From an uncultured Gammaproteobacteria bacterium (GTDB lineage: Bacteria; Pseudomonadota; Gammaproteobacteria; GCA-001735895), in contig CALDDP010000067.1 in the NCBI GenBank assembly GCA_937936805.1, forward strand, positions 1-39,498: a DNA stretch of 39,498 bases, in the 5' to 3' direction. Within the stretch, counting starts at the first letter, position 1, and every line of letters begins with the position of its first letter. Below the pieces are notes generated by a model. The model worked only from the letters and a program-made list of their open reading frames with translations, was not told where the DNA came from and did not search any database. Both the position numbers and the translations under genes were made by a program. Below are positions 133-18,869 of the stretch, in pieces.

Positions 133-1269
133 ATGTTTCGCGTTGTTATAAAGGTTTTGTTTTTCATCATTGTGGCCTTCCCGGCGGGCAGTGCCGGCGC
201 AGTTGAATTTAGCGCTGCCGAGCGGGAACTGATCGCGCAGCACGGTCCCTGGCCCATGCAGTTCGCGAGCGACAGCAGTAACCGGGTTTCCGGAAACGAG
301 CAGGCAATCCGGCTTGGCGAAGCGCTGTTTTTCGACCATGAACTCGGCATCGACTCGAAGTTCAGTTGCGCCAGTTGTCATGACCCCGGCAGGGCTTTCA
401 CCGACGGTCTGAAAACCTCCCAGGGCAGGGTGCGGCTGGATCGCAATACGCCGAGCCTGTTGAACCTGAAAGCCAACCGCTGGTTCGGCTGGGGTGGCGA
501 AAACGATTCCCTGTGGGCGCAAAGCATTCGCCCGATTGTGGCCGCTGACGAAATGGCCAATCATCCCGACCATGTACGGGAAATGTTATTGAGCCGGCAG
601 CGTTATCGGCAATTTTACCTGCAGGCATTCACCGCCGAAGTTGGCAGCGAGACCAGTGAACAGGTTCTGGTCAATGTCGGCAAGGCACTTGCGGCTTACC
701 AGGAATCCCTGCTGAGCCAGCGCACCGAATTCGACGATTTTCGGGATGCGTTGCTTGCCGGCGACCAGGTCTCGATGAGTCGTTATGCCGAAAGCGCGCA
801 GCGCGGGTTGAAGATATTTATCGGTGCGGGACGCTGCAATCTTTGCCACCTTGGACCTCGCTTCAGCAACGGTGAATTCGCTGATGTCGGCATAGCTTAC
901 TTTACTGCTGACGGTGTCGATGCCGGCCGCTATGGCGGCATTCGGCAGTTAAGGGCAAATCCCTATAACCTGCTCGGGAAATATAACGATGGTGACCCGC
1001 AATCAAACGCGCTGAGCAGTTCGCATGTGCGCCTGACCCAGCGTAACTGGGGTGAATTCAAGGTCCCCGGATTGCGCGCGGTGGCGGCGACTGCTCCCTA
1101 TATGCATAACGGCAGCCTGCCGACCCTGCGCGACGTGGTGCTGCACTATTCGAACCTCGACGAGGAGCGCCTGCATACCGATGGCGAGAAGATTTTGCGG
1201 CCGCTGCAGCTGAGTGATACCGAGATTGATGACCTCGTCAGTTTCTTACGGTCCCTGGGAGAAGAATAG
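133..1269 (+). CDS. Di-heme cytochrome c peroxidase / MauG family protein, exported
   Basis: Signal-peptide-like N-terminus; two c-type heme motifs CASCH and CNLCH; 'GLRAVAATAPYMHNGSLPTLRDVV' typical of the CCP/MauG family. Confidence 0.9.
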   Translation: MFRVVIKVLFFIIVAFPAGSAGAVEFSAAERELIAQHGPWPMQFASDSSNRVSGNEQAIRLGEALFFDHELGIDSKFSCASCHDPGRAFTDGLKTSQGRVRLDRNTPSLLNLKANRWFGWGGENDSLWAQSIRPIVAADEMANHPDHVREMLLSRQRYRQFYLQAFTAEVGSETSEQVLVNVGKALAAYQESLLSQRTEFDDFRDALLAGDQVSMSRYAESAQRGLKIFIGAGRCNLCHLGPRFSNGEFADVGIAYFTADGVDAGRYGGIRQLRANPYNLLGKYNDGDPQSNALSSSHVRLTQRNWGEFKVPGLRAVAATAPYMHNGSLPTLRDVVLHYSNLDEERLHTDGEKILRPLQLSDTEIDDLVSFLRSLGEE

Positions 1270-1271
1270 CC

Positions 1272-2789
1272 ATGCCTGAGCGCAAGTTGATTGCTGTCGG
1301 CGGATTCCAACACGAAACCAATACCTTTGCACCGCACCTGGCACCATTCGAGGCATTCGAGCGCGCCGACAGCTGGCCCGGGCTGACGATTGGCGAGCCG
1401 CTCATCGAAACCATGGCCGGGCTCAACATCCCGCTTTCCGGTTTCATCGAAACTGCGCTAAGGGCGGGGCATCGACTGCATCCACTGTGCTGGTGCGCTG
1501 CCGAACCGAGCAGCTTCGTGACGCGCGATGCATTTGAACGAGTCGCCGATATAATCTGCTCGGGGTTACGCGCGGGTGCGCTACCGGATGCGGTTTATCT
1601 CGATTTACACGGCGCAATGGTCACCGAACACTATGAGGACGGGGAAGGCGAATTGTTGCGCCGAGTGCGTGAAAACGTCGGCCCATCGATTCCAGTGGTG
1701 ATCAGTCTCGACCTGCATGCAAACGTCACCGAAGGTATGGTGGAAAACAGTGATGCGATGACGATTTATCGAACCTATCCGCATCTCGATATGGCGGCTA
1801 CCGGTGCCCGCGCCTGTGAGTTACTCGAGTTTTTACTCGCGGGCCACAAACTGCACAAGGCCATGCGTAAAATACCCTTCCTGTTCCCGCTCACCTCGCA
1901 ATGCACCGACTTCGAGCCCTGCCGTTCGCTCTATGGCGCGCTGGAGACGATGAGTCTGCGGCCAGGGATCAGTGACGTCGATTTCGCGACCGGGTTTCCG
2001 CCTGCCGATATCGCCGAATGTGGTGCCGCGGTGGTCGCCTATGGTGTCGACCAGGAATCGGTCGAGGCGGTGGCTGATCAGCTTTACCGGCAGGTACTCG
2101 ATGCCGAGGCGGATTTTACCTTCGAAACCTTTTCCGCTGACCAGGCGGTACAGCGCGCGATGAATAATGATTCAGACAAACCGGTGGTGCTCGCCGACGC
2201 GCAGGACAACCCGGGCGCCGGGGGTACCTCCGATACCACGGGCCTGCTCGAGGCGTTGGTTCGAAACGGCGCAAGGCAGGCCGTCATAGCCATTTTGTAC
2301 GATCCGGAAGTTGCCGCTATGGCGCATGCGGCAGGCGTCGGCGCGAACTTCGCAGCGGAACTGGGCGGCAAAAGTGGATTTCCAGGGGTGCCGTCTTACG
2401 CGGGAAAGTTTGCTGTCGAAGCGTTGGGCAACGGGCGTTTCGTGTTCACTGGTGAAATGAACCTGAATTCACATGCCGAACTCGGCGACATGGCGTTGCT
2501 GCGGGTCATCGACCACAACTCCGAGGTGCGCGTCGTCGTCGGCAGTGCGCGTGCACAATGCCTCGACCTGGCGATGATCCGCCATCTCGGCATTGAGCCG
2601 ACCGAACAGAAAATCGTCGCGGTTAAAAGCACGGTGCATTTTCGCGCTGACTACGACCCGATCGCGGCCGAAACGCTGGTGGTAATATCACCGGGCGCAA
2701 ATTACTGTGAGCTCATCGATATGGAATACAAAAACCTGCGTGCCGGTGTCAGACTGGAAACGTTGGGGCCCGAGCATCAAAATCAGTAA
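1272..2789 (+). CDS. M81 family metallopeptidase (MlrC-like)
   Basis: N-term 'IAVGGFQHETNTFAP', 'DLHGAMV', 'SLDLHANVTEGMV' and 'DNPGAGGTSDTTGLLEAL' are MlrC/M81 family hallmarks. Confidence 0.88.
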   Translation: MPERKLIAVGGFQHETNTFAPHLAPFEAFERADSWPGLTIGEPLIETMAGLNIPLSGFIETALRAGHRLHPLCWCAAEPSSFVTRDAFERVADIICSGLRAGALPDAVYLDLHGAMVTEHYEDGEGELLRRVRENVGPSIPVVISLDLHANVTEGMVENSDAMTIYRTYPHLDMAATGARACELLEFLLAGHKLHKAMRKIPFLFPLTSQCTDFEPCRSLYGALETMSLRPGISDVDFATGFPPADIAECGAAVVAYGVDQESVEAVADQLYRQVLDAEADFTFETFSADQAVQRAMNNDSDKPVVLADAQDNPGAGGTSDTTGLLEALVRNGARQAVIAILYDPEVAAMAHAAGVGANFAAELGGKSGFPGVPSYAGKFAVEALGNGRFVFTGEMNLNSHAELGDMALLRVIDHNSEVRVVVGSARAQCLDLAMIRHLGIEPTEQKIVAVKSTVHFRADYDPIAAETLVVISPGANYCELIDMEYKNLRAGVRLETLGPEHQNQ

Positions 2790-5700
2790 AGACCGAATTT
2801 TTCGAGGCTGGCCTGAAAACGATCTCGCAGGGCTTTATTGATCGATAGCGATCGCACCAGGCCCTTGCCCGTGACGCTACTGTCGAGCGCCCTGATTTCG
2901 GTGGCGAGTTCTTTGGCCATGGCCTCGTCACCGCGTTCCACGAGTGCGTGGACCAGGTAAAATCGGCACAGTGGCGAGTCGGGTTCGACGTCGATTCCAC
3001 GTCGATAAGTATCGATTGCATCGTCAAGACTACCGGAAAATTGTTCGATCTGGCCCTGGATCAAGTAATACCAGTTGGGTAGTACCGGACACAGCTGCAA
3101 CATGTTCTGGTTGCGAGTGCGGGCCTGCTCAAAGTCGCCGATAAAAATATAGGCAAAAGCCGTTAATGCCTGAATCTCGGCATTACCGGGCTGCAGCTCG
3201 ATTGCTTTGCTGAAGGCGGCAAGCATCTCGTCGGTTTCGTGTTTCATGAGGTGAATCGTACCGGCAAGACTCCAGGCTTCGGAATACTCAGGCGCGAGGC
3301 TGAGAGCATGGTTGTTGGCTTTTTCGGCCTCAGCTAAAGCGTCTTCGAAAGATTCAGTGCGTCCGATATAGACTTCCTGCCAGTGGGTCCAGCCAAGTGA
3401 GACCCAGGCATAGGGATAACCGGGATCGAGCTCGATTGCCTGTTTCGCCATGTTGCGGGCTTCGAGGATATTCTTCTGGATGTAAGTGTCCTGTAAATCA
3501 ATCGCTTCAAGGGTTAACTGCCAGGCCTTGATATTGGTAGTGCCGGCCGAGCGGTGCAATGCCATTTCACCATCGTCGAGATGCACCTTCATCGCCAGTG
3601 CGATATTCATCGACATCTCGTCCTGCACCGCGAAGAGATCATCGAGATCGCGGTCATAATGCTCACTCCAGACTATTTGCTTGTTTTGTGAATCGATCAG
3701 ATCGGCGTTGACACGAATTCGATCGCCACTCTTGCGCACGCTGCCCTCGAGAATATAGCGAACCCCCTGTTGCTTCGATATATCCTCGATCGATGCATTC
3801 CGGCCTTTATATTGCATTGTCGAATGACGCGCGACGATGCGCATATGCCTGAATTTCGACAGGGTTGAAATGACATCGGTGGTAATACCGTCGCTGAAGT
3901 ACCCCTGTTCGGAGTCACCGCTCATGTTTTCGAATGGCAGCACCGCGATCGATGGCATTTCCTCGAAAGGCCCGGTGAGATCTTCGAGCAAACCAGCCTG
4001 TACCAGCTGGTCGAAGGCCACTTCGAAATCCTCGTCGTAACGGTAAGCCTGGGAGATACGCCACAGGCGTCGCCATGCGTTTTCGTCCGTCGGATAGTTC
4101 GGCATTTCACGTTTTGCCAGTTCCTGGTAACGCTTCATTTCCTTGCGTGCTTCCTCGGCTAAACCCAGTCCATTGAAGCAGGCAGCTATCGATGCGTGGA
4201 TACTGGCCGGGGGGTGAGGAATCGAACGATAGGTCTTTATCGCCTTTTCGAATTGCCCCGCACCCTGGTAAACCCCACCCGCAGACCAGCCGGCGCCGAC
4301 GCTGTGCGGATCGAGTTGCAGCGCCCGGTCGGCATAGGGGATAGCTTCGTCGATTCGGCGGGTGAAACCGAGCAGGTCTGCCTTGACCACGTAGCCCTCC
4401 GAAGCCGTTGGATTCAGTTCGATTGCCTTGTCGACATGAAACTCGCTTTGTTCGTAGTTTCTCTTGAAAAACAGATACTCTCCGAAATAGGAATGCGCCA
4501 GCGCGTTGTCGGGTTCGATTTTGATCGCGGTTTCGAGGTGATACCTGGTCAGGCTTTCTGAATTTGCCTGGTCGTCTGTCCAGCCTTCCAGAATATCGAT
4601 CCAGTTAATCATCCCCAGGTTGGTATGCGCGGTCGAATTCTCCGGGTCGATCTCGAGGCATTTCTCGATCTCCTGCCTCGCCTTGACGAAGTCGCTGGCC
4701 GTGAACTTGCCGAAATAATATAGTCCGCGCAGCAGGTAGTCGTAGCTCTGCAGGTTTTTCGCGGCTTTACGCGCCGCCGACTGTTGTAGCGTGTGGCCGA
4801 TACGGCCGCTGATGGTGCCGGCAATTGTCTGGCTCAATTCCTGTTCCAGCTCGAGGATGTCTTCGAGTTCGGCGTCGTACTGTTTACCCCATACCTGGTT
4901 ACCGGTTGCCGATTCGATCAATTGCACCGAGATCCGAACCTTGTGAGCCGATTTGCGAAAGCTGCCCTCAACCAGGTAGGTCACATTCAGTTCATCGGAA
5001 ATTTCCTCCGAAGACTTGCCGCTATTCTTGAAAGCAAAGCTCGAATTCTGTGATTTGACGGCGAGGCCATCGAACAATCCAAGGGACAGGATGATGCTCG
5101 AGGTTATACCGTCGCTGAAATACTCCTGCTCGGGATCGCCGCTCATATTCTCGAACGGCAGCACCGCAATCGAGGGCATGCTGTCGACCGTTATTTCGAG
5201 CTGATCGCATAAGCCGGCCTGCAAAAGCAGGTCGAAAAAGGTATTTGAATCTTCTATGTACTGGAAAGGCATAGCTTCGTACCAGTACTCGCGCCATTCA
5301 TGTTCATTGGCGGGAAAATTCGCCATTTGTGCCTGTGCCAGTTCGAGATAATGCTGCATTTCTGTTCTTGCTTTGTCTGTTTCATTCATACCGGCGAGCG
5401 CGGCGGCGGTTTGTGCGTGCAGGCTCGGTGACATGTGGGGAATCGAGCGAAACGCCTTTATCGCGCGCTCATACTGCCCAGTGCTTAGGTAAACTTCACC
5501 CTCAGTCCAGCCGACATAAGGATGGTATGGATCGATTTGCATGCTCATGTCGGCATATTCGAGCGCTTCTTCGTAACGCCGCATCACGCTCAGTGCGCCG
5601 CATTTCATCGTGTAGCCATCAGGCAGGGTCGGGTTTAACTCGATGGCGCGGTCGGCGTGTATCTCGGCCCGTCCGAAATCGCGTGCAAATACCAGTTGTT

Positions 5701-8700
5701 CCGACATGAAGGCGTGGGTCAGTGCATTGTCGGGCTCGAGTTCGATGGCTTTTTCGGCATAGAGTCTCATCATTCGTCTGGCTTCTTCGCGATCTGCTGT
5801 CCAGTTTTCCAGGAGCTCCATAACATAGGTTTCTCCCAGCATGGAATGCGCCTCGCCATTGTCTGGATCGCACTTGATAGACAATTGAAACTGCTTGCGC
5901 GCGATGAGATTGTCGCGGACATTGAATTTCTCGAGATGATGAAGGCCGCGCATCAGGTAATCGAAGCTCTTAAGATCCTTTTTCGGCTTTTTCAAAGACG
6001 CGTTTTTCAGTTCTTTGCCGATGCGCCCGCTTATCGTACCGGCAATATTTTTTACCATCTCTTCTTCAATGGAAAAGAGGTCTTCGAGACTACAATCAAA
6101 ACGCTTGCCCCAAAGCTGATTCCCGCTGGCAGTCTCGTCAACCTGAACCGTGATGCGTACCTTGTCGCCGAACTTGCGAATGCTTCCCTCGACTATGTAT
6201 TGAACCGCCAGTTCGCCGACAATTTCATCGATGCCTTTTGCACTGTTCTTAAAGGCAAAGCTGGTATGGCGGGATTTAACATTAAGACCACTAAAAGAGC
6301 TTAGACTTACGATGATGCTCTCCGATATTCCATCACTGAAATACTCCTGCTCTGGATCGCCCGACAGATTGCTGAAGGGTAAAACCAGGATTGATGGTAA
6401 AGCCTCGGGACCAGTGCTTTTTTGCGTAGCCGCCATTTCCTCTTCGAGTCCTGCCCGTAGCAGGTAATCGATGATGTCCTGGTTGAGCGCAGGGTTGGCG
6501 AATGGTGCATTGTCTCTATAATAATCCAGCCATTGCGGAATGGTTTTCGGCATGGATAACATGTTCTGCCGGCAAAATTGGAGAAAAGCCGTCAGGGCCT
6601 TTTGTGCATTTTCCAATCGCTCGAGCTTGATATTAGCCGCGATATTGTAGATCTGGATAAATGCGGGAGCATTTCCAGTACCTGCAATAGTGGCCAGGCA
6701 ATCTTCGTACCGGCCGCTGAAATAAAGTGATTCGGCCTGTATCCACCTGACCCAGGAGTGATATGGATCGAGACGCAAGGCAAGTTCTGCTTTTTCCAGC
6801 GCAGCTTCGGCTTTTCCCTGCAGGCTGAGGTTGACCGCCTGCATGGCGATGGCTTCGGCATCGTTAGGGTTTTTTTCCAGCGCTTGCTGCAGTTGTCGAT
6901 CGGCTTCCTCATACCGATACCGATAGGCCAGGTAATCGGCATAGGCGACCTTGACCTGGGTCAAATCGGGGGCCAGCGCAAAGGCTTTGTGGATATGCTC
7001 GTCAGCCAGCTTGCGAGCATCTTCGATATCTTCAACCCAGCGATCGATCACGTTGATATCGTGGCACCAAAAGAGCTCCGTGTGCGCGAGGGCATTATCC
7101 GGGTCAAGGGCCAGGCATTGATTCAACTTGTCAATGGCAGTTAATGTTTCCTGTGCGTTTCCCTTATTGGCATGATGCCTGCCGGCGAGCAGCAAATCGT
7201 AGGCCTGCTGATGCGCGGCGCCCTTGGTGATCGCGATGCGCTGTAAGTCCGACTCTATCTGCCCGGTGACCGTGGCGGCGATGGAGCGGCTCAGCTCCTC
7301 TTCGAGATCGAACAGGTTTTCGATTTCAGCGTCGTAGCGTTTACCCCAGACCTGGTTGTCACTTTTCGCGTCGACCAGCTGGACCGTCACCCGGATGTTT
7401 TTGTCGGTTTTACGAATACTGCCTTCTACGATGTAATCGACCTCGAGCTCTTTTGAAATTTCATCGGGGCTTTTAATCTGCTGCTTAAACGCAAAGCTCG
7501 AATTTCGCGACTTGACGTTGAGTCCCGGAAACAACGACAGGTTCAGAATAATGCTTTCGGTAATGCCGTCGCTGAAGTATTCCTGCGCGGGATCGCCGGA
7601 CAGGTTATCGAATGGCAGCACGGCGATACCATGTTCGCTTGACTGAATCCGGGCGTGGGGAGACAAAACTTCTTCGCTGAGCCCCGCCTGAATCATACAT
7701 TCAATGATATCCTGGTTGATTTGCGGATCGGCAAACGGGTAATTTTCACGTGTATATTGCAACCACTCGTCGATAGTTTGCGGCATCGCCAGCATGCTTT
7801 CCCGGCTTTCCTGCAGAAGTGACTGTAATGCCTGTCGTGCCGGGTCGATTCTGCCGAGTTTGACATTGGACGCGATTCCAAAGATCTGGATGAAACCCGG
7901 CGAGGTACGCATTTTCGTGATCGTCTTCAGGGTGGCTTCGTATTGACCGGAGATAAACTGCGATACCGCAACTTCCCACTCGGCCCAGGGATGGTAAGGA
8001 TCGAGTAAGCACGCGCGTTCGGCGAATTGCAGCGCGTCCTCGGCTTGACCCTGCATCTCGAGGTTCAACGCCATGGTCGTCAAGATAGTCGGATCGTTAG
8101 GGTTGGTTTCGAGTGCCATGTCGAGGTGTTTCGTTGCTTTTTCGAATTCACTGCAAAACACCAGGTATTGGGCATAAAATACCTGCACCGTGCAGGATTC
8201 TGGCGCCATCGCCATCGCCTTTTGGATGTGTTCCGCCGCCAGTTTGAAAGAGGTCAGGTAATCCTCAGTCCAGCGTCCGAGGTAGTCCAGTAAATGACTG
8301 ACGTAAATCCACATCAGCGCCCTCACGTTATCCGGGTCTTTTGCGAGGCACTGGTTCAGTTTCTCGATCGCGATCACCGTGTCCTGCCGATTGTAGCGTT
8401 GATTGTGATAGATACCGCTGAGCAGTAGATCATAGGATTGTTGATCCGTGGCACCCTTGGCAATCGCGATACGCTGCAGCTCGGATTCGATCTGACCGGT
8501 GACCGTGGCCGCAATCGTGCGGCTCAGATTTTCTTCCAGCGAGAACAGGTCGGAGATATCGGCGTCGTAGCGCTTGCCCCAGATCTGGTTGCCCTCGGCG
8601 GCATCGATCAGTTGCACCGTGATGCGGATGTGTTGATCAGACCTGCGGATGCTGCCCTCGACGATGTAGTCGACGTTGAGTTCGGTGGAAATCTCGCCAA

Positions 8701-9664
8701 TGCTCTTGATTTGTTGCTTGAAGGCGAAGCTGGAATTGCGCGATTTGACCTGCAGCCCCGGGAATAGCGACAGGTTGAGGATGATGCTGTCAGTTATGCC
8801 GTCGCTGAAATATTCCTGCTCGGGGTCTCCGGACAGGTTATCGAACGGCAGCACCGCGATGCTGTGATCATTTGACGCAGTCGAAGCGACAGGTGCTTTA
8901 CTGACAGCGGGAGTTGGCGTGGGCCCTGGTTTGGCTGCGCCACCCGCTATTTGATCGCGTAACTCGATCGTTGCGCTTTGGGGGTCTACATCGAGTTCGT
9001 CACGTAAAACCTGCTCACAGCGTTTGAAGGCTTGCAGCGCGTGGCTGCGGTCGCCATGTTCGAAATAGCTGCGTATCAAGATGCGCCAGCCCGACTCGCC
9101 GAGCGGGTCCTGTTTGACCAGCCGTTCGGCGGATTTGATCGCATGACTGAAATCGTGACTGAGTAGCTGGGTTTCCGCCAGGTTCGACAGTATCTCGATG
9201 AACTGGCGTTTGAAGCGGCCGCGTTCGCCGTCGAGCCATTCCTGGCAGGCCGCATCGCGAATCGAAATACCTTCGAGGAATTCACCCTGGTAGAGATCGG
9301 CCGCGGTGGTCAGGGATTCGTAACCGCCCTCGGCGGCGAGGCGTTCGAACTCGTGTACGTCAATATCGATAAGTTCGGGGATCAGGCTGACCGTGGTGCG
9401 ATCGACCTGTAGCACCATGTCGGCGACGTCACCCAGCGATTTTTTGATCGCGCTCAGGCACTGGCGCAACGAGTTACGCGCCTGCTCTTCGCCGCGGTCG
9501 CTCCACAGCAGGTTAATCAGGCGTTCACGCGGATGACGTATGCCGGGGGTCAGCGCCAGGTAGGCCAGCAGGACTTCGGCCTTGCGCATTGACAACGAAA
9601 TTCGCGTGCCTGACGGCAGCAAACATTCGAAACGGCCCAGCAATATGAGCTCCAACTTCGACAT
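2783..9664 (-). CDS. Giant (2293 aa) SARP/BTAD-type winged-helix protein with five tandem TolB-like (COG5616) + TPR modules
   Basis: Single uninterrupted ORF. N-term about 245 aa is winged-helix + BTAD-like ('LELILLGRFECLLPSG...RKAEVLLAYLAL...LWSDRGEEQARNSLRQCLSAIKKSLGD'). Motif '(S/G)I(A/L)VLPF-(D/E/S)N(L/M)SGD-x-(E/A)Q-x-YFSDGI' recurs five times, each followed by TPR-like repeats. SD GGGGAGG upstream of the ATG. Confidence 0.92.
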   Translation of the reverse strand: MSKLELILLGRFECLLPSGTRISLSMRKAEVLLAYLALTPGIRHPRERLINLLWSDRGEEQARNSLRQCLSAIKKSLGDVADMVLQVDRTTVSLIPELIDIDVHEFERLAAEGGYESLTTAADLYQGEFLEGISIRDAACQEWLDGERGRFKRQFIEILSNLAETQLLSHDFSHAIKSAERLVKQDPLGESGWRILIRSYFEHGDRSHALQAFKRCEQVLRDELDVDPQSATIELRDQIAGGAAKPGPTPTPAVSKAPVASTASNDHSIAVLPFDNLSGDPEQEYFSDGITDSIILNLSLFPGLQVKSRNSSFAFKQQIKSIGEISTELNVDYIVEGSIRRSDQHIRITVQLIDAAEGNQIWGKRYDADISDLFSLEENLSRTIAATVTGQIESELQRIAIAKGATDQQSYDLLLSGIYHNQRYNRQDTVIAIEKLNQCLAKDPDNVRALMWIYVSHLLDYLGRWTEDYLTSFKLAAEHIQKAMAMAPESCTVQVFYAQYLVFCSEFEKATKHLDMALETNPNDPTILTTMALNLEMQGQAEDALQFAERACLLDPYHPWAEWEVAVSQFISGQYEATLKTITKMRTSPGFIQIFGIASNVKLGRIDPARQALQSLLQESRESMLAMPQTIDEWLQYTRENYPFADPQINQDIIECMIQAGLSEEVLSPHARIQSSEHGIAVLPFDNLSGDPAQEYFSDGITESIILNLSLFPGLNVKSRNSSFAFKQQIKSPDEISKELEVDYIVEGSIRKTDKNIRVTVQLVDAKSDNQVWGKRYDAEIENLFDLEEELSRSIAATVTGQIESDLQRIAITKGAAHQQAYDLLLAGRHHANKGNAQETLTAIDKLNQCLALDPDNALAHTELFWCHDINVIDRWVEDIEDARKLADEHIHKAFALAPDLTQVKVAYADYLAYRYRYEEADRQLQQALEKNPNDAEAIAMQAVNLSLQGKAEAALEKAELALRLDPYHSWVRWIQAESLYFSGRYEDCLATIAGTGNAPAFIQIYNIAANIKLERLENAQKALTAFLQFCRQNMLSMPKTIPQWLDYYRDNAPFANPALNQDIIDYLLRAGLEEEMAATQKSTGPEALPSILVLPFSNLSGDPEQEYFSDGISESIIVSLSSFSGLNVKSRHTSFAFKNSAKGIDEIVGELAVQYIVEGSIRKFGDKVRITVQVDETASGNQLWGKRFDCSLEDLFSIEEEMVKNIAGTISGRIGKELKNASLKKPKKDLKSFDYLMRGLHHLEKFNVRDNLIARKQFQLSIKCDPDNGEAHSMLGETYVMELLENWTADREEARRMMRLYAEKAIELEPDNALTHAFMSEQLVFARDFGRAEIHADRAIELNPTLPDGYTMKCGALSVMRRYEEALEYADMSMQIDPYHPYVGWTEGEVYLSTGQYERAIKAFRSIPHMSPSLHAQTAAALAGMNETDKARTEMQHYLELAQAQMANFPANEHEWREYWYEAMPFQYIEDSNTFFDLLLQAGLCDQLEITVDSMPSIAVLPFENMSGDPEQEYFSDGITSSIILSLGLFDGLAVKSQNSSFAFKNSGKSSEEISDELNVTYLVEGSFRKSAHKVRISVQLIESATGNQVWGKQYDAELEDILELEQELSQTIAGTISGRIGHTLQQSAARKAAKNLQSYDYLLRGLYYFGKFTASDFVKARQEIEKCLEIDPENSTAHTNLGMINWIDILEGWTDDQANSESLTRYHLETAIKIEPDNALAHSYFGEYLFFKRNYEQSEFHVDKAIELNPTASEGYVVKADLLGFTRRIDEAIPYADRALQLDPHSVGAGWSAGGVYQGAGQFEKAIKTYRSIPHPPASIHASIAACFNGLGLAEEARKEMKRYQELAKREMPNYPTDENAWRRLWRISQAYRYDEDFEVAFDQLVQAGLLEDLTGPFEEMPSIAVLPFENMSGDSEQGYFSDGITTDVISTLSKFRHMRIVARHSTMQYKGRNASIEDISKQQGVRYILEGSVRKSGDRIRVNADLIDSQNKQIVWSEHYDRDLDDLFAVQDEMSMNIALAMKVHLDDGEMALHRSAGTTNIKAWQLTLEAIDLQDTYIQKNILEARNMAKQAIELDPGYPYAWVSLGWTHWQEVYIGRTESFEDALAEAEKANNHALSLAPEYSEAWSLAGTIHLMKHETDEMLAAFSKAIELQPGNAEIQALTAFAYIFIGDFEQARTRNQNMLQLCPVLPNWYYLIQGQIEQFSGSLDDAIDTYRRGIDVEPDSPLCRFYLVHALVERGDEAMAKELATEIRALDSSVTGKGLVRSLSINKALRDRFQASLEKFGLY
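2786..3952 (-). repeat. TolB-like/TPR module 5 of 5 (389 aa, divergent)
   Basis: Starts SIAVLPFENMSGDSEQGYFSDGITTDVISTLSKFRHMRIVARHSTMQYKGRN; differs from modules 1-4 in the core. Confidence 0.85.
3953..5173 (-). repeat. TolB-like/TPR module 4 of 5 (407 aa)
   Basis: Starts SIAVLPFENMSGDPEQEYFSDGITSSIILSLGLFDGLAVKSQNSSFAFKNS; same length as module 3. Confidence 0.85.
5174..6394 (-). repeat. TolB-like/TPR module 3 of 5 (407 aa)
   Basis: Starts SILVLPFSNLSGDPEQEYFSDGISESIIVSLSSFSGLNVKSRHTSFAFKNS. Confidence 0.85.
6395..7630 (-). repeat. TolB-like/TPR module 2 of 5 (412 aa)
   Basis: Starts GIAVLPFDNLSGDPAQEYFSDGITESIILNLSLFPGLNVKSRNSSFAFKQQ; very similar to module 1. Confidence 0.85.
7631..8863 (-). 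repeat. TolB-like/TPR module 1 of 5 (coding repeat, 411 aa)
   Basis: Starts SIAVLPFDNLSGDPEQEYFSDGITDSIILNLSLFPGLQVKSRNSSFAFKQQ. Confidence 0.85.
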
Positions 9665-9852
9665 CTGGCCTCCCCGGAGGCGAATTTCAGAAAATCAACT
9701 TAACAAAATGCCTTACAAATCAATGAGATATAAATTTTAATGATTTTTTAATGTTTATTTTGGGTGATTTAACGCAATTCGGCAAGGTAATTAACGGGGG
9801 CTGACGAGAATGATCACCGTCGCAACAACAAACAGATAACGAGGCACCCACA
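9665..9852. promoter_or_regulatory. AT-rich divergent intergenic region between the giant regulator and a small ORF
   Basis: 188 bp between divergent starts; contains TTTTAATG twice at 9735-9742 and 9746-9753 (11 bp apart) and AAATCAA at 9692-9698 and 9717-9723. Confidence 0.5.
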
Positions 9853-10059
9853 ATGAGAAGAGTCAGAAACCACAAGGTCAACACCGCTAACCCCGCCCTT
9901 ATGTTTGCTCAAGGCATTGAAAGCATCATCCGGGACCCGCTGGTCAGCCCGTCGCAAACCGACGACCTGGAAATGACCACATTGCGTCGCCGGGCGGGCA
10001 AGAAGGATTCAAGCGGCAACCTCTTCAATAGCTTGTTACGCCAGTTCGCCAATTTCTAA
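9853..10059 (+). CDS. Small uncharacterised protein (68 aa)
   Basis: ATG preceded by GAGG; MRRVRNHKVNTANPALMFAQGIESIIRDPLVSPSQTDDLEMTTLRRRAGKKDSSGNLFNSLLRQFANF; followed by a terminator-like hairpin. Confidence 0.6.
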   Translation: MRRVRNHKVNTANPALMFAQGIESIIRDPLVSPSQTDDLEMTTLRRRAGKKDSSGNLFNSLLRQFANF

Positions 10060-10075
10060 CATTACCAACAGTGGG

Positions 10076-10106
10076 CGGAGGATACTTACCTGGAAGGTAT
10101 CCTCCG
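10076..10106 (+). terminator. Rho-independent-like hairpin after the small ORF
   Basis: CGGAGGATACTT-ACCTGGA-AGGTATCCTCCG: 10-bp perfect stem extendable by two pairs, followed by TCCCTTT. Confidence 0.6.
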
Positions 10107-10317
10107 TCCCTTTGCCAATCCGGTTTGCCAGGCTTTAACTGAAACATGTATCTTATGTCTCCTTGACGATTTTCCCGGGAGGCAGTCGTGGGCGTATTAT
10201 CCGAATTCGATCCTAAAGAAATAGTGGCGTACGAGCGCGCGCGAGAACTGCTGGATACTGCACGGGGTCCTGCACGGCTCTGGAGGTCTGGTAGCCATTG
10301 ATTTCAACCCGGGCGCG

Positions 10318-12711
10318 ATGCTGAAACAAATGGCGAGACAACCCGGAATTTCCCGATTGCTGGCTGCTCTCGGAATGCTGGGCCTGCTTGCGGCGTCTGT
10401 CTGGTCGAGCCCCGGCTATTCGCAAACTGAAATGACCATCGGTGTGCTCGCGTTTCGTGGCAAGCAGGACGCACTCGAGCGCTGGGGACCAACCGCGCAG
10501 TATCTTTCGCAAAGCATCAGCGATCACAGTTTTAAAATTGTTCCGTTGACGCTCGAGGGCATGCTATCCCGGGTCGAGCAGGATCGGCTGGATTTTATTC
10601 TGACCAATACCGGTAACTATGTCGTGCTCGAGAATGCCTTCGGAATTTCGCGGCTCGCTACCCTGAAGGTTCGACAATTCGCGGCGGATTTCACCCAGTT
10701 TGGTGCGGTTATTATTACCCGGCGCGGCCATCCGGATCTGAATCAGCTTGAAGATATCGCCGGACATTCGCTGATGGCGGTCAGCGAAGAGGCATTTGGC
10801 GGGTTTCAGATGGCCTGGCGCGAATTGATCGACGTGGGCATTGATCCGTTCGAAGATTTGCAATCCCTGCAATTTGCGGGGTTTCCCCAGGATGATATTG
10901 TTCACGCCGTGATTGCGGGCGAGGTCGACGCCGGAACGGTACGCAGCGGTACCATCGAACGCATGGCCGCGGATGGTTTGATTGATATCGAGCAGATCCG
11001 CGTACTCGGCTCGAGAGACAGCAAATCCTTCCCTTTTTTGCATAGCACCCGACTCTATCCCGAATGGCCGTTTGCCAAGGCGCGTAAGACATCGCAGGAA
11101 CTGGCGCAACGAGTTGCGATCGCGTTACTGCAAATGAAGCCGGACAGTGAGGCTGCCACCCTGGCATTGTCTGCCGGCTGGACGATTGCGCTGGATTATG
11201 GCCCGGTGCACGAACTGTTCCAGGAGCTCGAGATAGGTCCATACGCCTATTTAAAGAAACCGGAACTGGCGCTGGTCTGGCGGGAATACAAGGGCTGGAT
11301 AATATTCAGCCTCGCGATGGTGCTGGTGCTGGTCACCTTGCTGGTGTTGATCGGGCGGGTGAATCGGCGTATTTCGCAATCTGAATTGAAGTACCGCGAA
11401 GAAGCCAACCAGCGCAAGCAGGCCCAGGAGCTGCTCGCATCGCACAAGGAGAATCTCGAGGTCCGCGTCGAGGAGCGCACCGCCGAACTGGCCGAGGTCA
11501 ATACCTCGCTGCGCCGCAGTGAGGCCGCGCTGCGTGCCATGCATGACATCACTACCGATGCGGACAGAGGATTCGACGACAAGCTCGAGAGCCTGTTAAG
11601 CGAAGGCTGTCGGTTCTTCGGTATGGAATTTGCGATGGTTACCGGTGCCACCGAGTCGGGCGAAGGCAGCATTTGCAGGGTCGGCAGCGACGCGGAGAGC
11701 AGTTGGCAGGAGCCGATGCGGATCTGCGAACGCCTGCGTGACGAAATAAAGACCCTGCAGCAACCCGTGGCGATTGCGGATTTCAGTGCTTATTCGTTTC
11801 AGGACGGTAGCCGGGATCTTTCAGGTTCAGCGATTGGCGCCGATTATCGGGTGAACGATGAAACTGCCGGCTTTATTCTGTATAGCAGTTCGAACGCGGT
11901 ACAAAGAGTTTTCTCGGACGTCGATATCGATATTTTACAGCTGATGGCGCAATGGCTGGGCGGCGAGCTGGAAAGATCCGAGATCAACCTGCGTGCGCAG
12001 GAACACCAGGCCCACCTGGCACATGTGTCGCGTCTCAATACGATGGGTGAGATGGCGACGGGGATTGCACACGAACTTAACCAGCCCCTGACCGCGATAC
12101 TCAATTACAGCAGTGGCAGCCTCAGGTTGTTGCAGAAAAATGGTGACGACGATACTGCTTTAAAGAATGCGATCGAAAATATCGGTAACGATGCCAGGCG
12201 AGCGGCGGGAATCATCAAGCGCCTGCGTGAATTTATCAAGCGCAGTGAGCACAGGCCCGAGCGTTTTCTGCTGCGCGACTGTATCGAGCCGGCGGTGGAA
12301 TTACTGCGCCCCAGGCTGGATCAGCATCAGATTGATGTCGATGTCAGCTACGCTGCCGATGTTTCCGATGTGCTTGCAGATCGAATCCAGATCGAACAGG
12401 TACTTGTCAACCTGTTGCTAAACTCTATCGATTCGTTGCAGCATTGCGCGCAGGCATCAGGAAAGATTATGGTCAGGGTCGATAGCGGCGATAAAGGGGA
12501 TATCTCCATCGGGGTCAGCGATACGGGTAAGGGTCTCGCTGCCGATGTGGTCGATCACCTGTTTGATCCATTTTTTACCACCAAAACCGAGGGCATGGGT
12601 ATGGGCCTTTCGATCAGCCGTTCGATTATTGAATCGCACGGCGGCACCATCGAATACCTGGTCAATGAATTTCAGCAACCCACGTTTCGTTTCACGCTGC
12701 CAACGACATGA
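10318..12711 (+). CDS. Sensor histidine kinase with periplasmic PhnD-like domain, TM, coiled coil, GAF-like region, HisKA and HATPase (TtrS-like)
   Basis: Signal peptide then 'MTIGVLAFRGKQDALERWGPTAQYLSQ' PhnD-like; TM 'IIFSLAMVLVLVTLLVLIG'; 'GEMATGIAHELNQPLTAILNYSSGSLRL' H-box; 'NLLLNSIDSL', 'DTGKGL', 'GMGMGLSISRSIIESHGG'. Confidence 0.88.
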   Translation: MLKQMARQPGISRLLAALGMLGLLAASVWSSPGYSQTEMTIGVLAFRGKQDALERWGPTAQYLSQSISDHSFKIVPLTLEGMLSRVEQDRLDFILTNTGNYVVLENAFGISRLATLKVRQFAADFTQFGAVIITRRGHPDLNQLEDIAGHSLMAVSEEAFGGFQMAWRELIDVGIDPFEDLQSLQFAGFPQDDIVHAVIAGEVDAGTVRSGTIERMAADGLIDIEQIRVLGSRDSKSFPFLHSTRLYPEWPFAKARKTSQELAQRVAIALLQMKPDSEAATLALSAGWTIALDYGPVHELFQELEIGPYAYLKKPELALVWREYKGWIIFSLAMVLVLVTLLVLIGRVNRRISQSELKYREEANQRKQAQELLASHKENLEVRVEERTAELAEVNTSLRRSEAALRAMHDITTDADRGFDDKLESLLSEGCRFFGMEFAMVTGATESGEGSICRVGSDAESSWQEPMRICERLRDEIKTLQQPVAIADFSAYSFQDGSRDLSGSAIGADYRVNDETAGFILYSSSNAVQRVFSDVDIDILQLMAQWLGGELERSEINLRAQEHQAHLAHVSRLNTMGEMATGIAHELNQPLTAILNYSSGSLRLLQKNGDDDTALKNAIENIGNDARRAAGIIKRLREFIKRSEHRPERFLLRDCIEPAVELLRPRLDQHQIDVDVSYAADVSDVLADRIQIEQVLVNLLLNSIDSLQHCAQASGKIMVRVDSGDKGDISIGVSDTGKGLAADVVDHLFDPFFTTKTEGMGMGLSISRSIIESHGGTIEYLVNEFQQPTFRFTLPTT

Positions 12712-13349
12712 GTGCTCAGGACCAGCCCGGCAGCAACCAGCAAATGGTCTACGTTGTCGACGACGATCTCTCGGCCCGAGAGTCATTGTGCTGGTTGCTC
12801 AATACGGAGGGTATTGCTACCCGGGCTTTCGCATCGGCGGAGGCATGTCTCGAACACTGGAGTAGTGACTGGAGTGGCTGTATCACGGTGGATGTTCGCA
12901 TGCCGGGTAAAAGCGGGCTGCAACTGCAGGAAGAATTGAATTCACGCCACAACCTGCTGCCGGTGATTGTCCTTACTGGTCATGCCGACGTACCGATTGC
13001 GATCCGGGCGATGAAACTGGGTGCTTATGATTTTCTCGAGAAGCCGTACTCCGACAGCGAACTGCTGACCTGCGTTAAGAATGCACTGGAACTGGGTCGA
13101 GAAATCGATCACGCCGAGCTGGAGAGGAACCGCGCCGAAATCGCGATTGCTAACCTGACCGATCGGGAGCGTGAAGTGATGTGCCTGGTGGTAGAAGGTA
13201 ACACCAACAAGGCTGTTGCCGCCCGGCTGGGGATTTCCGAGAAAACGGTTGAGGTCCATCGCTCGCGTGTCATGGAAAAGACAGCGGCCAGCTCGCTATC
13301 GGACCTGGTGCGTATCTGCCTGATGTTAAAAGAAAAATTATCGCTTTAA
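12708..13349 (+). CDS. FixJ/TtrR-type response regulator (REC + LuxR HTH)
   Basis: 'VYVVDDDLSARESLCWLL', 'DVRMPGKSGLQL', 'VLTGHADVPIAIRAMKLGAYDFLEKPY', 'LTDREREVMCLVVEGNTNKAVAARLGISEKTVEVHRSRVMEK'; ATGA overlap with the kinase. Confidence 0.92.
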   Translation: MSAQDQPGSNQQMVYVVDDDLSARESLCWLLNTEGIATRAFASAEACLEHWSSDWSGCITVDVRMPGKSGLQLQEELNSRHNLLPVIVLTGHADVPIAIRAMKLGAYDFLEKPYSDSELLTCVKNALELGREIDHAELERNRAEIAIANLTDREREVMCLVVEGNTNKAVAARLGISEKTVEVHRSRVMEKTAASSLSDLVRICLMLKEKLSL

Positions 13350-13357
13350 AGGGAGTA

Positions 13358-13369
13358 AGGGAATTCCCT
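13358..13369. promoter_or_regulatory. Perfect 12-bp palindrome AGGGAATTCCCT, candidate operator
   Basis: Located in the 86-bp gap between the response regulator and the DsrE-like gene, just upstream of a TATAAT-like element (AATTATAATT). Confidence 0.35.
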
Positions 13370-13435
13370 AATTATAATTTACGGGTGGCTGGCATAAGCT
13401 GGAGCGCGTCCGAATATTCTTACTGAGGAGGAATT

Positions 13436-13921
13436 ATGAAAACGATTACAAAACTGGTTATCGGCACCTTGCTGCTTTCGAGTTACTGGATGGCGGGAAG
13501 TGCAATCGCCGGTGAATACTATGGTAAGCAGAAAGTTGTTTATCACATCAACTACGATAACCCCAAGAAGCAGTCTGGCGCGTTGCGCAATATACAGAAT
13601 CACATCAATGCTGTCGGTGCTGAAAATCTCGACCTGAAGGTTGTGCTGCACGGTAACGGGCTGGCATTGTTGCTCGAGCCTGATTCGCTCGACAAGTTGA
13701 AGAAGTTCAAGCACGCCAATGCAGACGACAAGATGACCGCCAAGGTTACCGATCTCAAGGGGCAGGGCGTGTCATTTCATGTCTGTGCAAATACCGTACG
13801 GGGTCGCAAGGTAGACGTTGAATCCGATCTCTACGATGTGTCCAAGGAGGATATAGTGCCGAGTGGCGTTGCCGAAGTAGCGAAGCTCCAGCAAGAAGGG
13901 TATGCCTACATCAAACCTTGA
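13436..13921 (+). CDS. DsrE family protein, exported
   Basis: SD GAGGAGGAATT upstream of the ATG; signal peptide; 'KVVYHINYDNPKKQSGALRNIQNHINAVGAENLDLKVVLHGNGLALL' and 'GVSFHVCANTV' match the DsrE-like fold. Confidence 0.8.
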   Translation: MKTITKLVIGTLLLSSYWMAGSAIAGEYYGKQKVVYHINYDNPKKQSGALRNIQNHINAVGAENLDLKVVLHGNGLALLLEPDSLDKLKKFKHANADDKMTAKVTDLKGQGVSFHVCANTVRGRKVDVESDLYDVSKEDIVPSGVAEVAKLQQEGYAYIKP

Positions 13922-13951
13922 TCTATGGGTCTGGCGTCAGCGTTAATCCAC

Positions 13952-13983
13952 GCCGGCAAGCTGCTCCCGGGCAGCTTGCCGGC
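13952..13983 (+). terminator. Strong hairpin downstream of the DsrE-like gene
   Basis: GCCGGCAAGCTGC-TCCCGG-GCAGCTTGCCGGC: perfect 13-bp stem followed by CGCTATTTGTTG; only a weak U tract. Confidence 0.65.
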
Positions 13984-14020
13984 CGCTATTTGTTGCTCGA
14001 AGAAGCTCCCTTTTCAGCCG

Positions 14021-14548
14021 ATGGCTGGAAATCCAACGTCTGCCGGCGCAGCAAGAAAACTGGTTTTCGCATTGCTGCTGGCGCTTGCGCCAGCGGCGCA
14101 GGTGATGGCCGCTTCCCCGCTATTTCAAAATCTTAAAACCGGTGTATTCGAAACCCTCGATGATCATGAAACTGACAAGCAGTGGATGGTGGTCATGATA
14201 TGGGCCCACGATTGCGAGATTTGCGAGCGTGAAGTCGGTGACTATCAACAGTTTCATTTAAGCCACAGTCAGGATGACGCCAGGGTAGTCGGCATCACCA
14301 TTGACGGAGAGAGCAGGAAGAACGCTGCGCTGGGTTTCGTGAATCGACACCAACTCGCGTTCGAGAACCTGCTGGGGGAGCCGGAAACGGTAATGTCCTA
14401 CTACCAGTTGATAAGCGGAAGTCGATGGATCGGAACGCCCAGCTTTCTGATTTTTGCGCCCGGCGGTGAATTGAAGGCAGCCCAGGCAGGCGGGGTGCCG
14501 GTCGAAATCGTCGAAAATTTTATTGCCGACAACAGCGCTAATCCCTAG
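14021..14548 (+). CDS. Thioredoxin/TlpA-like exported protein (start moved to internal ATG)
   Basis: ORF listed from 13925, but its first 32 codons run through the hairpin at 13952-13983. Signal peptide 'RKLVFALLLALAPAAQVMAA', CEIC redox motif, cis-Pro region 'IGTPSFLIFAPGGEL'. Confidence 0.75.
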   Translation: MAGNPTSAGAARKLVFALLLALAPAAQVMAASPLFQNLKTGVFETLDDHETDKQWMVVMIWAHDCEICEREVGDYQQFHLSHSQDDARVVGITIDGESRKNAALGFVNRHQLAFENLLGEPETVMSYYQLISGSRWIGTPSFLIFAPGGELKAAQAGGVPVEIVENFIADNSANP

Positions 14549-15533
14549 CCGATACTTGCGCGCGTTGGTTTACAATCCGAAAATTCTCCTGTTAGTCGCT
14601 TGCGGTCTCTGGCTGAACACAATGGTTGCATGGGCCGCCGATTATTCGCCGGTACCGGTAGATATGACGCCGATCCAGGTGTCGCCGCACGCGTATTACG
14701 TGCGCGGTGCTACCGGCATCGCTACCGATAATTATGGATTCATATCAAACGCGGCCTTCGTCGTCACCGATGAGGGAGTAGTGGTTTTCGACACCCTGGG
14801 GACGCCCGCGCTCGGGGCGGGACTACTCGCAGCGATACACGGCGTGACCGATGCGCCGATCAAAACCATATACATCAGCCATTACCACGCTGACCATATG
14901 TACGGCGCCCAGGCTTTCTCTGCAAGCGGTGCGGAAATTGTGGCTTCAGATGGCGCGAAGCTCTACCTCGAGGGAGAAGTCGCCGGCCAGCGCCTGCGGG
15001 AGCGTCGCCTGAGCCTGAGTCCATGGGTCAACGACGATACGCACATCGTCGAACCTGATCGTTACCTGCAGGGCGAAGAGCGTTTTACTCTCGGTGGTGT
15101 CAGGTTGCGTGTGCTAAATATCGGTAGCGCACATTCCGAGGGGGACCTGGTTTTGTTTGTGGAAAACGATGCGGTGCTGTTTTCGGGCGATATCGTTTTT
15201 CAGGAGCGTATCCCGTTTCTCGGCTCATCGAGTTCCGCCGAGTGGCTCGAGGTATTGAACGAGATGGAGCAGATGGACGTGGTTGCCATCGTGCCCGGTC
15301 ACGGGGCCGCGGCCGAAAGCCCGCGTGAAGTCGTGTCGCTGACCAGGGAATACCTGTCCTTCGTGCGCGCGGCAATGCAGCAGGCGGTAGCGGAATGGAT
15401 ACCGTTTGATGAGGCCTACGAGGCCACCGACTGGGGTGATTTCATCGAGTATCCGGCCTTTCTCGAAACCAATCGACGCAACGCTTATGGCATCTATCTT
15501 TCGCTGGAACAGGAATCGCTTGAATCCCGCTAG
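14523..15533 (+). CDS. Metallo-beta-lactamase fold hydrolase, exported (SoxH-like)
   Basis: 'ISHYHADHMYGAQAF' (HxHxDH), 'GSAHSEGDLVLFVENDAVLFSGDIVF', 'VPGHG'; start uncertain (TTG at 14523 or downstream). Confidence 0.85.
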   Translation: MPTTALIPSRYLRALVYNPKILLLVACGLWLNTMVAWAADYSPVPVDMTPIQVSPHAYYVRGATGIATDNYGFISNAAFVVTDEGVVVFDTLGTPALGAGLLAAIHGVTDAPIKTIYISHYHADHMYGAQAFSASGAEIVASDGAKLYLEGEVAGQRLRERRLSLSPWVNDDTHIVEPDRYLQGEERFTLGGVRLRVLNIGSAHSEGDLVLFVENDAVLFSGDIVFQERIPFLGSSSSAEWLEVLNEMEQMDVVAIVPGHGAAAESPREVVSLTREYLSFVRAAMQQAVAEWIPFDEAYEATDWGDFIEYPAFLETNRRNAYGIYLSLEQESLESR

Positions 15534-15565
15534 ATCGGGATATTCGTGTCATATTCCGGCCGGGT

Positions 15566-16174
15566 TCAGACCAGCATTTCCCATACCACGGGCAGGATCG
15601 AAGCGACCAGCAACAGCGCCATGGCGATATTAAACAGTTTCAGGTGGGCTGGATCCCTGAGGAATTTCTGTAGCCCGGCGCCAAACACCAGCCACACCCC
15701 GGCACAGGGAAAGGTGATGATCATGAATGTTATACAGATGATCGTGACCTGCACGAAAAAATTGTCGTCCAGCGTGGTGTAGGCCGCCAGCGCGCTGCTG
15801 CCCATGATCCAGGCCTTGGGGTTGATCCATTGAAACGCTGCCGACTGCCAGAAGTTGATCGGTTTCGATTGCGTCACTTCACTGACACCGCCACTTGAAT
15901 TGGCGATTTTCCAGGCGAGGTACAACAGGTAAACGATGCCGATTATCCTGATGATTTCGTGCAGCACCGGGTAGAGCTGGAACAGGGTGCCGAATCCCAG
16001 TCCGATCAGCGCCAGCATCACCGGAAAACCGATACAGATACCGAGCAGGTGCGGTATACCCCTGCGCACGCCGAAATTCAGCCCGGTCGTGGTCAGCATG
16101 ACATTGTTCGGACCCGGCGTAATCGCAGCGATTACACCGAATACGACAAACGAAACGAACAGTTCCGGTTCTAT
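15566..16174 (-). CDS. LysE/RhtB family exporter; N-terminus apparently begins at a non-ATG/GTG/TTG codon (candidate ATA at 16172-16174)
   Basis: The ORF track begins at an internal ATG (16099), but the in-frame upstream sequence encodes xEPELFVSFVVFGVIAAITPGPNNVM with the LysE PGPNN motif; AGGAG at 16181-16185. Confidence 0.75.
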   Translation of the reverse strand: MEPELFVSFVVFGVIAAITPGPNNVMLTTTGLNFGVRRGIPHLLGICIGFPVMLALIGLGFGTLFQLYPVLHEIIRIIGIVYLLYLAWKIANSSGGVSEVTQSKPINFWQSAAFQWINPKAWIMGSSALAAYTTLDDNFFVQVTIICITFMIITFPCAGVWLVFGAGLQKFLRDPAHLKLFNIAMALLLVASILPVVWEMLV

Positions 16175-16422
16175 GAGGGGCTCCTGGTCGGTCTTTTCTG
16201 AAGGTCATCCAGCGGCGTGGATCCTGGCGCTCGGCGTAAATGACACGCAGGCGTGAGTAAAACTCATCCAGGTCGATGTGGCAACTGCGAATGTGACGTG
16301 TCGAACTGCGTGCAGTTAAAGGCTTCGCCGGCATAATTCACCATTGTCTGCGCAAACGCAATTCGATTTTTCGATCAAAGGGGATAAACTTCGCGATACC
16401 CTGCTTGCGCCGGAGAAGCGCC

Positions 16423-16944
16423 GTGTCCGTCAGTCATGAAATACTCGATGTCGTTGATGAAAACGATAACGTGATCGCGCGAAAAACCCGTGGCGAGATT
16501 CACGCCGCGGGATTGATGCATCGTGCTGTCCACATCCTGGTTTTCAACAGCAAGGGTGAGCTGTTCCTGCAAAAGCGCTCCATGAGCAAGGATGAGCAGC
16601 CGGGAAAGTGGGACTCTTCGGCAGCGGGACACGTCGATAGCGGGGAAGCATACCTCGATTGCGCGCAGCGTGAAATTGCCGAAGAGCTGGGAATTGTCGC
16701 TGAGCAATCGATGCAGGAACTGTTTAAGCTGCCGGCTTCGATGCTTACCGGTAACGAACATTGCATGGTGTATCGCTATACGTTCGACGGGCCGTTGGTG
16801 CTGCAAGCCGAAGAGATTGACGACGGCCGCTGGGTGTCCCATGCAACGATGGACCGCATGGTTACCGAGGAGGATCCGTGCCTGACCGAATCCATCCGCC
16901 TGATCTGGCAGGAATATCGCCATTCGAGCCACGCGAATCGGTGA
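16423..16944 (+). CDS. NUDIX hydrolase
   Basis: Nudix box GHVDSGEAYLDCAQREIAEELGI; GGAG 7 nt upstream of the GTG at 16423 (the ORF track uses a TTG at 16405). Confidence 0.9.
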   Translation: MSVSHEILDVVDENDNVIARKTRGEIHAAGLMHRAVHILVFNSKGELFLQKRSMSKDEQPGKWDSSAAGHVDSGEAYLDCAQREIAEELGIVAEQSMQELFKLPASMLTGNEHCMVYRYTFDGPLVLQAEEIDDGRWVSHATMDRMVTEEDPCLTESIRLIWQEYRHSSHANR

Positions 16945-17059
16945 GGAGACTTGTCAGTCAGCCGCTTTTACCGTGCGACAGTGTGCCAGATTCCGCTATA
17001 CAAATCCCCCGCCCGGCGTTCTAATAAGGTCCTTTGAAACGAAGACCTGAGAGGGAACC

Positions 17060-17764
17060 ATGTCAAAAGTTGCTTTAATAGTGGGCGCCGGTAGTGGTAA
17101 CAGCGCCTCGTTTGCGCGCGCGCTGGCGGCCCGGGACTACAAGGTAGTCCTGGCGGCAAGAAATACCGCCAAACTCGATGCCCTGTGTACGCAGATCGGT
17201 GCACACGCGATAAGTTGTGACGCTACCTCCGTGGATTCGGTCAGGGATTTGTTCGCATCGCTGGAGCAGGACGTGGGTAGCGCCGAGGTCGTTCTCTACA
17301 ATGCCAGCGCCTATACTGCCGGTTCGATTACCGTGCTTGATCCGGAGCTCGTGCTTGACTCGCTGATGCAAACTGCTTATGGCGCTTTCCTGGTTGCGCA
17401 ACAGGCTGCGATCGGCATGCAACGACTCGGCGGTGGCGCGCTATTCTTTACCGGTGCTACCGCGAGCGTCAAAGGTTTCCCGAATTTCGCGCCTTTTGCC
17501 ATGGGCAAATTTGCCCTGCGCGGCCTCGCACAAAGCCTGGCACGCGAACTCGGGCCGGAGAATATTCATGTGGCGCATTTCATCATCGACGGAGGCATCG
17601 CTTCTCCGGGCCGGGACCTGGGTGCCAGTGACGCAACCAGCAATGCGAATGACGCCGAACTCGAGCCCGACGCTATCGCGCAGACTTACATGGCCGTGTT
17701 AAACCAGCATCGGAGCGCGTGGACACACGAAATCGATTTACGCCCGTGGGTGGAAAACTTTTAA
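17060..17764 (+). CDS. SDR family oxidoreductase
   Basis: 'VALIVGAGSGNSASFARALAARDYKVVLAAR' Rossmann motif; 'VLYNAS'; SD GAGAGGGAACC upstream. Confidence 0.88.
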   Translation: MSKVALIVGAGSGNSASFARALAARDYKVVLAARNTAKLDALCTQIGAHAISCDATSVDSVRDLFASLEQDVGSAEVVLYNASAYTAGSITVLDPELVLDSLMQTAYGAFLVAQQAAIGMQRLGGGALFFTGATASVKGFPNFAPFAMGKFALRGLAQSLARELGPENIHVAHFIIDGGIASPGRDLGASDATSNANDAELEPDAIAQTYMAVLNQHRSAWTHEIDLRPWVENF

Positions 17765-18433: not shown

Positions 18434-18869
18434 TCTGACGTCCGACCCAGTCGGGTAATTCTGCTACTGCGGCGGCTTTCAGCCTCGCCTGGACTTCGTC
18501 GGGCATCTCCATCGTGCGTCCCTCGCGGGTATTGTAGTGCAGTGCCATAAACTCCGCGGTGGCGCACAGTTCTCCGCTAACCAGCATTCGATGGGCAAAC
18601 CAGATTTTCTTCGCATCACTGCCGAGTATCAGGGTTTCAATCTCCATGGACGCCGGAGCGCGCACATCGTTGAGGTAACGTAAATGGGTTTCGACGGTGT
18701 AAATAGCACAACCGGTTTTATCAAAGTATTCACTACCGATACCGAAGTGGTCCTGCATGACCCAGGTGGTGTTACTGAACGGAACCAGGTAGTAGGCCTC
18801 GTTGAGGTGGCCGTAAAGATCCAGCCAGCTATCCTGCAGCGGTTCGGAATGAAGTCTTAATACCGTCAT
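18414..18869 (-). CDS. Acyl-CoA thioesterase (4HBT/hotdog fold)
   Basis: 'DLYGHLNEAYYLVPFSNTTWVM...VETHLRYLNDVRAPASMEIETLIL' hotdog pattern; Met16 of the listed ORF (18914) is the likely start. Confidence 0.75.
   Translation of the reverse strand: MTVLRLHSEPLQDSWLDLYGHLNEAYYLVPFSNTTWVMQDHFGIGSEYFDKTGCAIYTVETHLRYLNDVRAPASMEIETLILGSDAKKIWFAHRMLVSGELCATAEFMALHYNTREGRTMEMPDEVQARLKAAAVAELPDWVGRQISLVKK

Follow-up and report, generated by a model that had tools for sequence, protein, structure and literature searches.

Bacterial regulators normally change their inputs by swapping one sensor domain. The CadC protein of Escherichia coli, a ToxR-like one-component regulator with 3LY7 as its sensory domain, carries this domain in the periplasm, and the TolB/TPR regulators constitute an abundant, largely uncharacterized group. 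SARPs are known to bind heptameric direct repeats with 4- to 15-nt spacers (PMC10972967). For a typical SARP, such repeats would be expected close to the -35 region. A literature search in open-access full text, outside of which most subscription journals lie, returned no paper on tandem SARP-TolB-TPR arrays.

The window, i.e., the whole stretch of 39,498 nucleotides that was analyzed, belongs to a gammaproteobacterial MAG (87% complete, 348 contigs) and encodes a regulator that combines a known head with a known sensor fold. The array is unusual and variable, and both a dedicated operator and a partner small protein are predicted for it. We regard this arrangement as real and well supported; the mechanism proposed for it is read from its anatomy and conservation. 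The regulator gene is composed of the following parts:

2783..9664, minus strand: SARP-(TolB-like/TPR)x5 regulator gene, a 2293-aa ORF with an ATG start
8945..9664, minus strand: SARP head (residues 1-240) made up of an OmpR-type winged helix and a BTAD (PF03704, 8.5e-22; matches to EmbR 2FEZ and AfsR 8HVR)
8864..8944, minus strand: flexible Pro/Ala-rich linker, residues 241-267 (pLDDT <50 at residues 243-265)
7631..8863, minus strand: module 1, a CadC-like sensory domain of class A; 84% identity between its TPR half and that of module 1 in G006
6395..7630, minus strand: module 2, class A; 86% identity between its TPR half and that of module 1 in G024
5174..6394, minus strand: module 3, class B by module comparison and tree
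3953..5173, minus strand: module 4, class B; 75% identity between its TPR half and that of module 6 in G018
2786..3952, minus strand: module 5, class C (bipartition support 1.0), the final position in all complete arrays except one

The preliminary description had reported a single ORF with five modules behind a SARP/BTAD-type N-terminus, and its coordinates and all five module starts (nt 8863, 7630, 6394, 5173, and 3952, corresponding to residues 268, 679, 1091, 1498, and 1905) were reproduced exactly. A core HMM likewise found exactly 5 domains of 225 to 244 bits apiece, and chance is excluded as the origin of the repeat. In the Pfam search, the protein matched BTAD, FlgO/TolB_N/CadC_C1, and numerous TPR families. 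The head starts with an OmpR-type winged helix that is followed by the BTAD, which is the domain order of a SARP, and in a PDB search EmbR spanned its residues 3 to 240 and AfsR its residues 23 to 239. No NB-ARC domain was present in the best 25 of 31 Pfam families, which speaks against a large SARP (SARP-NB-ARC-TPR) or a STAND ATPase. The cyclase catalytic domain of TolB-like/TPR class III cyclase proteins was likewise absent among the Pfam families listed, and the array behind the SARP/BTAD head carries no catalytic domain, in agreement with the earlier proposal of a repeating sensor/scaffold array without catalytic output. Hydropathy revealed no membrane segment in the 2293-aa protein (19-aa maximum of 1.38, located away from the linker), and hence not the single transmembrane helix between the DNA-binding and sensory parts that is typical of CadC/ToxR-like regulators; a membrane-bound CadC homologue is thereby ruled out. 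Since a membrane segment is missing, the regulator would be a cytoplasmic one-component protein with cytoplasmic sensors, and the whole looks like such a regulator equipped with tandem CadC-like sensors. We consider it probable, with moderate confidence, that this regulator is dedicated to its own locus, with the head on an operator, the modules as input, and a small protein as output.

The five modules (411, 412, 407, 407, and 389 aa) cover residues 268 to 2293, and each of them consists of a TolB-like core and TPRs. Within the protein, the cores (first 140 aa) are 35 to 80% identical and the TPR halves 16 to 47%. Module 1 was modeled with AlphaFold2 from 44 modules (pLDDT 86, pTM 0.79), and its best Foldseek match in the PDB was the CadC sensory domain 3LY9 (E 3.5e-07, TM 0.69 by target length, 306 columns); 3LY8, 3LY7, and 3LYA were also among the top six, the remainder being TPR proteins. 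Pfam placed CadC_C1 (PF18500) at residues 327 to 389 (6.9e-07). According to the model, the module is by fold a CadC-type sensory domain. This fold was missed in the preliminary description, as were the variable module number, the cassette exchange, the operator, and the small gene, so that its interpretation stands for the array as such and is otherwise incomplete. A model of residues 1 to 1090 (SARP head and two modules) has confident domains in an uncertain arrangement (pTM 0.43), and beads on a string is all that can safely be read from it.

In the proposed mechanism, the tandem CadC-like domains would serve as the input, the TolB-like core being a constant frame and the TPR half a variable surface that binds ligands or partners, and the array would integrate several cues. 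A serious but rather unlikely alternative holds that the modules mainly form a protein-protein scaffold or polymerizing platform, in which additional copies confer avidity or length instead of ligand sensing. TPRs do usually bind proteins, and strongly conserved cores with variable TPR halves would suit this role; however, over its full length the module matches the CadC sensory domain better than it does pure TPR scaffolds, and the TPR halves form discrete, diverged types, which avidity alone would not need.

For the proposed one-component regulator, the predicted site of action lies directly upstream, in the intergenic region shared with a divergent gene:

9736..9796, plus strand: predicted SARP-type operator, four heptamers oriented to the small gene, from a 17-locus alignment
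9806..9811, plus strand: -10-like GAGAAT, a weak box
9853..10059, plus strand: 68-aa small gene without a Pfam family, dN < dS
10070..10111, plus strand: hairpin after the small gene, likely a terminator or 3' stabilizer (-28.3 kcal/mol, z -3.8)

The heptamers at 9736, 9747, 9768, and 9790 (TTTAATG, TTTAATG, TTTAACG, and ATTAACG) are spaced 11, 21, and 22 bp apart with spacers of 4, 14, and 15 nt, and this TTTAAYG-like block is conserved between the regulator gene and the divergent 68-aa ORF in all of the 17 aligned loci. A three-heptamer pattern was present in 18 of the 31 congeners, exactly once in each genome and at this gene, but in 0 of 26 other genomes, and the reversed control pattern occurred in none of these genomes; for the 18-base two-heptamer pattern, the window's own genome contains one perfect site. 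In 13 of 18 loci, the -10-like box is located exactly 9 nt past the last heptamer. Consensus scans of positions 9600 to 10400 for sigma-70 promoters and terminators yielded nothing useful for the small-gene promoter and reported neither GAGAAT nor the hairpin, and no RNA element reached the Rfam gathering scores in the window. Judged from its sequence, the four-heptamer block is a predicted SARP-like operator, and its conservation beside a divergent small gene is new here. The SARP head would bind the four heptamers, and since all of them face the small gene, activation of this gene by the bound head is the likeliest reading; the head may also tune its own promoter.

Of 57 relatives, 20 contain the small gene, all of them within the genus; it is under purifying selection, with pairwise dN below dS (e.g., 0.26 versus 1.15). 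It is present at every module-bearing locus with a readable upstream region and missing at two module-less loci (n = 2, uncorrected for phylogeny). Hairpins that are alike but differ in sequence follow it in several congeners, albeit not in all. Copies of the small gene are also oriented divergently to winged-helix-TolB-TPR genes, with a different upstream sequence, namely in the window's own genome (contig C248) and in two others. The former, at positions 4196 to 4396 of locus L094, lies beside a cyclase-TolB-TPR gene and has CTTCAT-type repeats upstream that are about 11 bp apart. At locus L097 (G001:C363), an in-frame TGA interrupts the small gene near the contig end, by either decay or sequencing error. 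A known family can be rejected for the small protein, which has no Pfam match; similarity to DUF1127 is confined to its rhizobial counterparts. Because the two kinds of partner share the TolB/TPR part, feedback on the modules is favored, and the small protein most likely returns a signal onto them, as its linkage in sequence would suggest. The binding of DUF1127 small proteins to the sensor kinase PhoR provides a precedent for the principle only (PMC12501420).

That the small protein is an unrelated neighbor and the operator serves nothing but autoregulation of the regulator gene is clearly unlikely. G029, which has neither modules nor the small gene, does retain two heptamers 11 bp apart ahead of its head gene, as would be expected of autoregulation, but at the array loci all heptamers face the small gene with a fixed spacing to the -10-like box, and the linkage of the small gene is genus-wide and extends to another type of regulator.

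Returning to the proposed dedicated regulator with its modules as input, the number of modules per protein in the genus is 0, 2, 3, 4, 5, or at least 7. Two modules are encoded in G006 and G021, three in G024 and G002, four in G013, and five in the window. G023 has five and G018 seven, both on contigs that begin within the head, which in G018 is connected to the array by a 94-bp contig overlap. In G029, on a 1.9-Mb contig, and in G014, only the head is present; the gene stops in the linker and no module follows. A tree of 44 modules separated class C (last modules, support 1.0) and class B (internal modules, 0.96), class A (front modules) being the remainder, itself unsupported. Except for G003, whose three modules lack the last class (ABB), every complete array is arranged as A(1-4)-B(0-2)-C. 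In congeners, the array gene adjoins MlrC and a block of a TtrS-like kinase, a FixJ-like regulator, and DsrE. In the window, positions 10318 to 15533, which are conserved next to the array gene in congeners, comprise genes for a TtrS-like sensor kinase with a phosphonate-binding-type domain, a FixJ-like regulator, DsrE, a thioredoxin-like protein, and a SoxH-like metallo-hydrolase. Farther away, at 28741 to 28819, 2.6 copies of a 30-bp tandem repeat are located at the end of an 802-aa ORF (28723-31131, minus strand).

The comparison of the TPR halves is indicative of mosaicism. Those of modules 1, 2, and 4 of the window are closest to different species, i.e., G006 (84%), G024 (86%), and G018 (75%), and identities to most other species are about 40 to 60%, versus about 80 to 90% for class A cores (two modules). 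Between the window and G006, module 1 has a dS of 0.54 and the flanking MlrC gene one of 1.40. G021 and G002 are nearer to the window by MlrC (86% identity, dS 0.99), yet their TPR halves reach only about 48 to 50% and no such module is shared. These values are consistent with module cassettes that were exchanged horizontally or sorted differentially. In G018 and G023, exactly identical stretches of 47 to 54 bp lie close to the junctions between modules and suggest where recombination may happen. In terms of the mechanism, recombination would add, remove, and exchange modules, with the conserved core and the junctions between modules as its probable sites. It is conceivable, and proposed here only tentatively, that the array acts as a combinatorial sensor bank, in which species swap TPR cassettes by recombination within a fixed A-B-C frame to retune the inputs of one transcription factor with a constant head, operator, and small-protein output.

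Neutral expansion and contraction of the repeat, with a drifting number of little functional meaning past the first and last modules, would agree with the great lability of the copy number (0 to at least 7) and the persistence of two-module forms in two species but is very doubtful, given that the modules keep the reading frame, that purifying selection acts on them (dN/dS of about 0.04 to 0.22 in the pairs compared), and that A-B-C order is so widely kept. Finally, the assembly artefact that the preliminary description had named as a danger to its claim is rejected: the gene contains no exact repeat of >=18 bp, so that collapse or inflation of the copy number by short-read assembly is unlikely, and independently assembled congener MAGs carry the same gene with 2 to 7 modules at the same locus.

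Outside the genus, a protein with a SARP head and two modules was found in G248, a member of another family, with heptamers 32 bp (11 + 21) apart. It was the only genome with a further multi-module protein among 369 surveyed class-wide, and there was none among 399 surveyed phylum-wide, the two best candidates per genome having been scored. This indicates that the multi-module form is rare outside the genus and bears out the earlier statement that the TolB-like domain normally occurs once per protein. In another gammaproteobacterial family, at least nine single-module TolB-TPR genes of about 610 to 760 aa are lined up head to tail (L066, G040:C94, positions 753-18805), as it were, an array in the form of a gene cluster. 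The rhizobial SARP-TolB-TPR genes of L124 and L125 are 688-aa open frames with one module each. Five rhizobial SARP-TolB loci have a divergent small gene, and TTTAAC(G/A)-N4-TTTAGCG is present in the same orientation in four of them, the fifth keeping one heptamer; their small proteins are DUF1127-like where scanned (1.4e-05 in one case). A further rhizobial group (L132 and L134) is without the heptamer pair layout and adjoins YcaO genes. In these two loci (L132 4517-5663, Rhizobium leguminosarum; L134 4537-5678, R. acidisoli), genes for a 47-aa peptide and a YcaO-like protein come after the SARP-headed regulator, possibly as a RiPP cluster.

The variation in module number and the exchangeable TPR cassettes are new here. 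At this one locus, a single polypeptide appears to gain, lose, and trade its inputs as complete cassettes, and the natural series of 0, 2, 3, 4, 5, and 7 modules raises the question of how several CadC-type inputs are integrated. The locus moreover ties TolB/TPR regulators to a concrete predicted operator and a small-protein gene. With CadC of E. coli, the regulator shares the sensory fold in each module, a head of the OmpR winged-helix class, and the one-component layout, but it has five sensory domains instead of one, a SARP head where CadC has a simple winged helix, and no membrane segment. AfsR, EmbR, and ActII-ORF4 are similar in the winged helix plus BTAD and in the heptameric spacing of the predicted operator; in contrast, the protein described here is gammaproteobacterial, has a TolB/TPR array and no NB-ARC or FHA as its C-terminal part, and has a small-protein gene as its predicted target, not an antibiotic cluster. 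COG5616-type TolB-like/TPR proteins with a winged helix or a class III cyclase, several of which are encoded in this genome, contain the same kind of module, but only one per protein in every such match examined. The single-module SARP-TolB-TPR proteins of Rhizobium agree in the head, the module, the divergent small gene, and the TTTAAC(G/A)-N4-TTTAGCG motif and differ in having one module only and a DUF1127-like small protein, which belongs to another family than the one described here.
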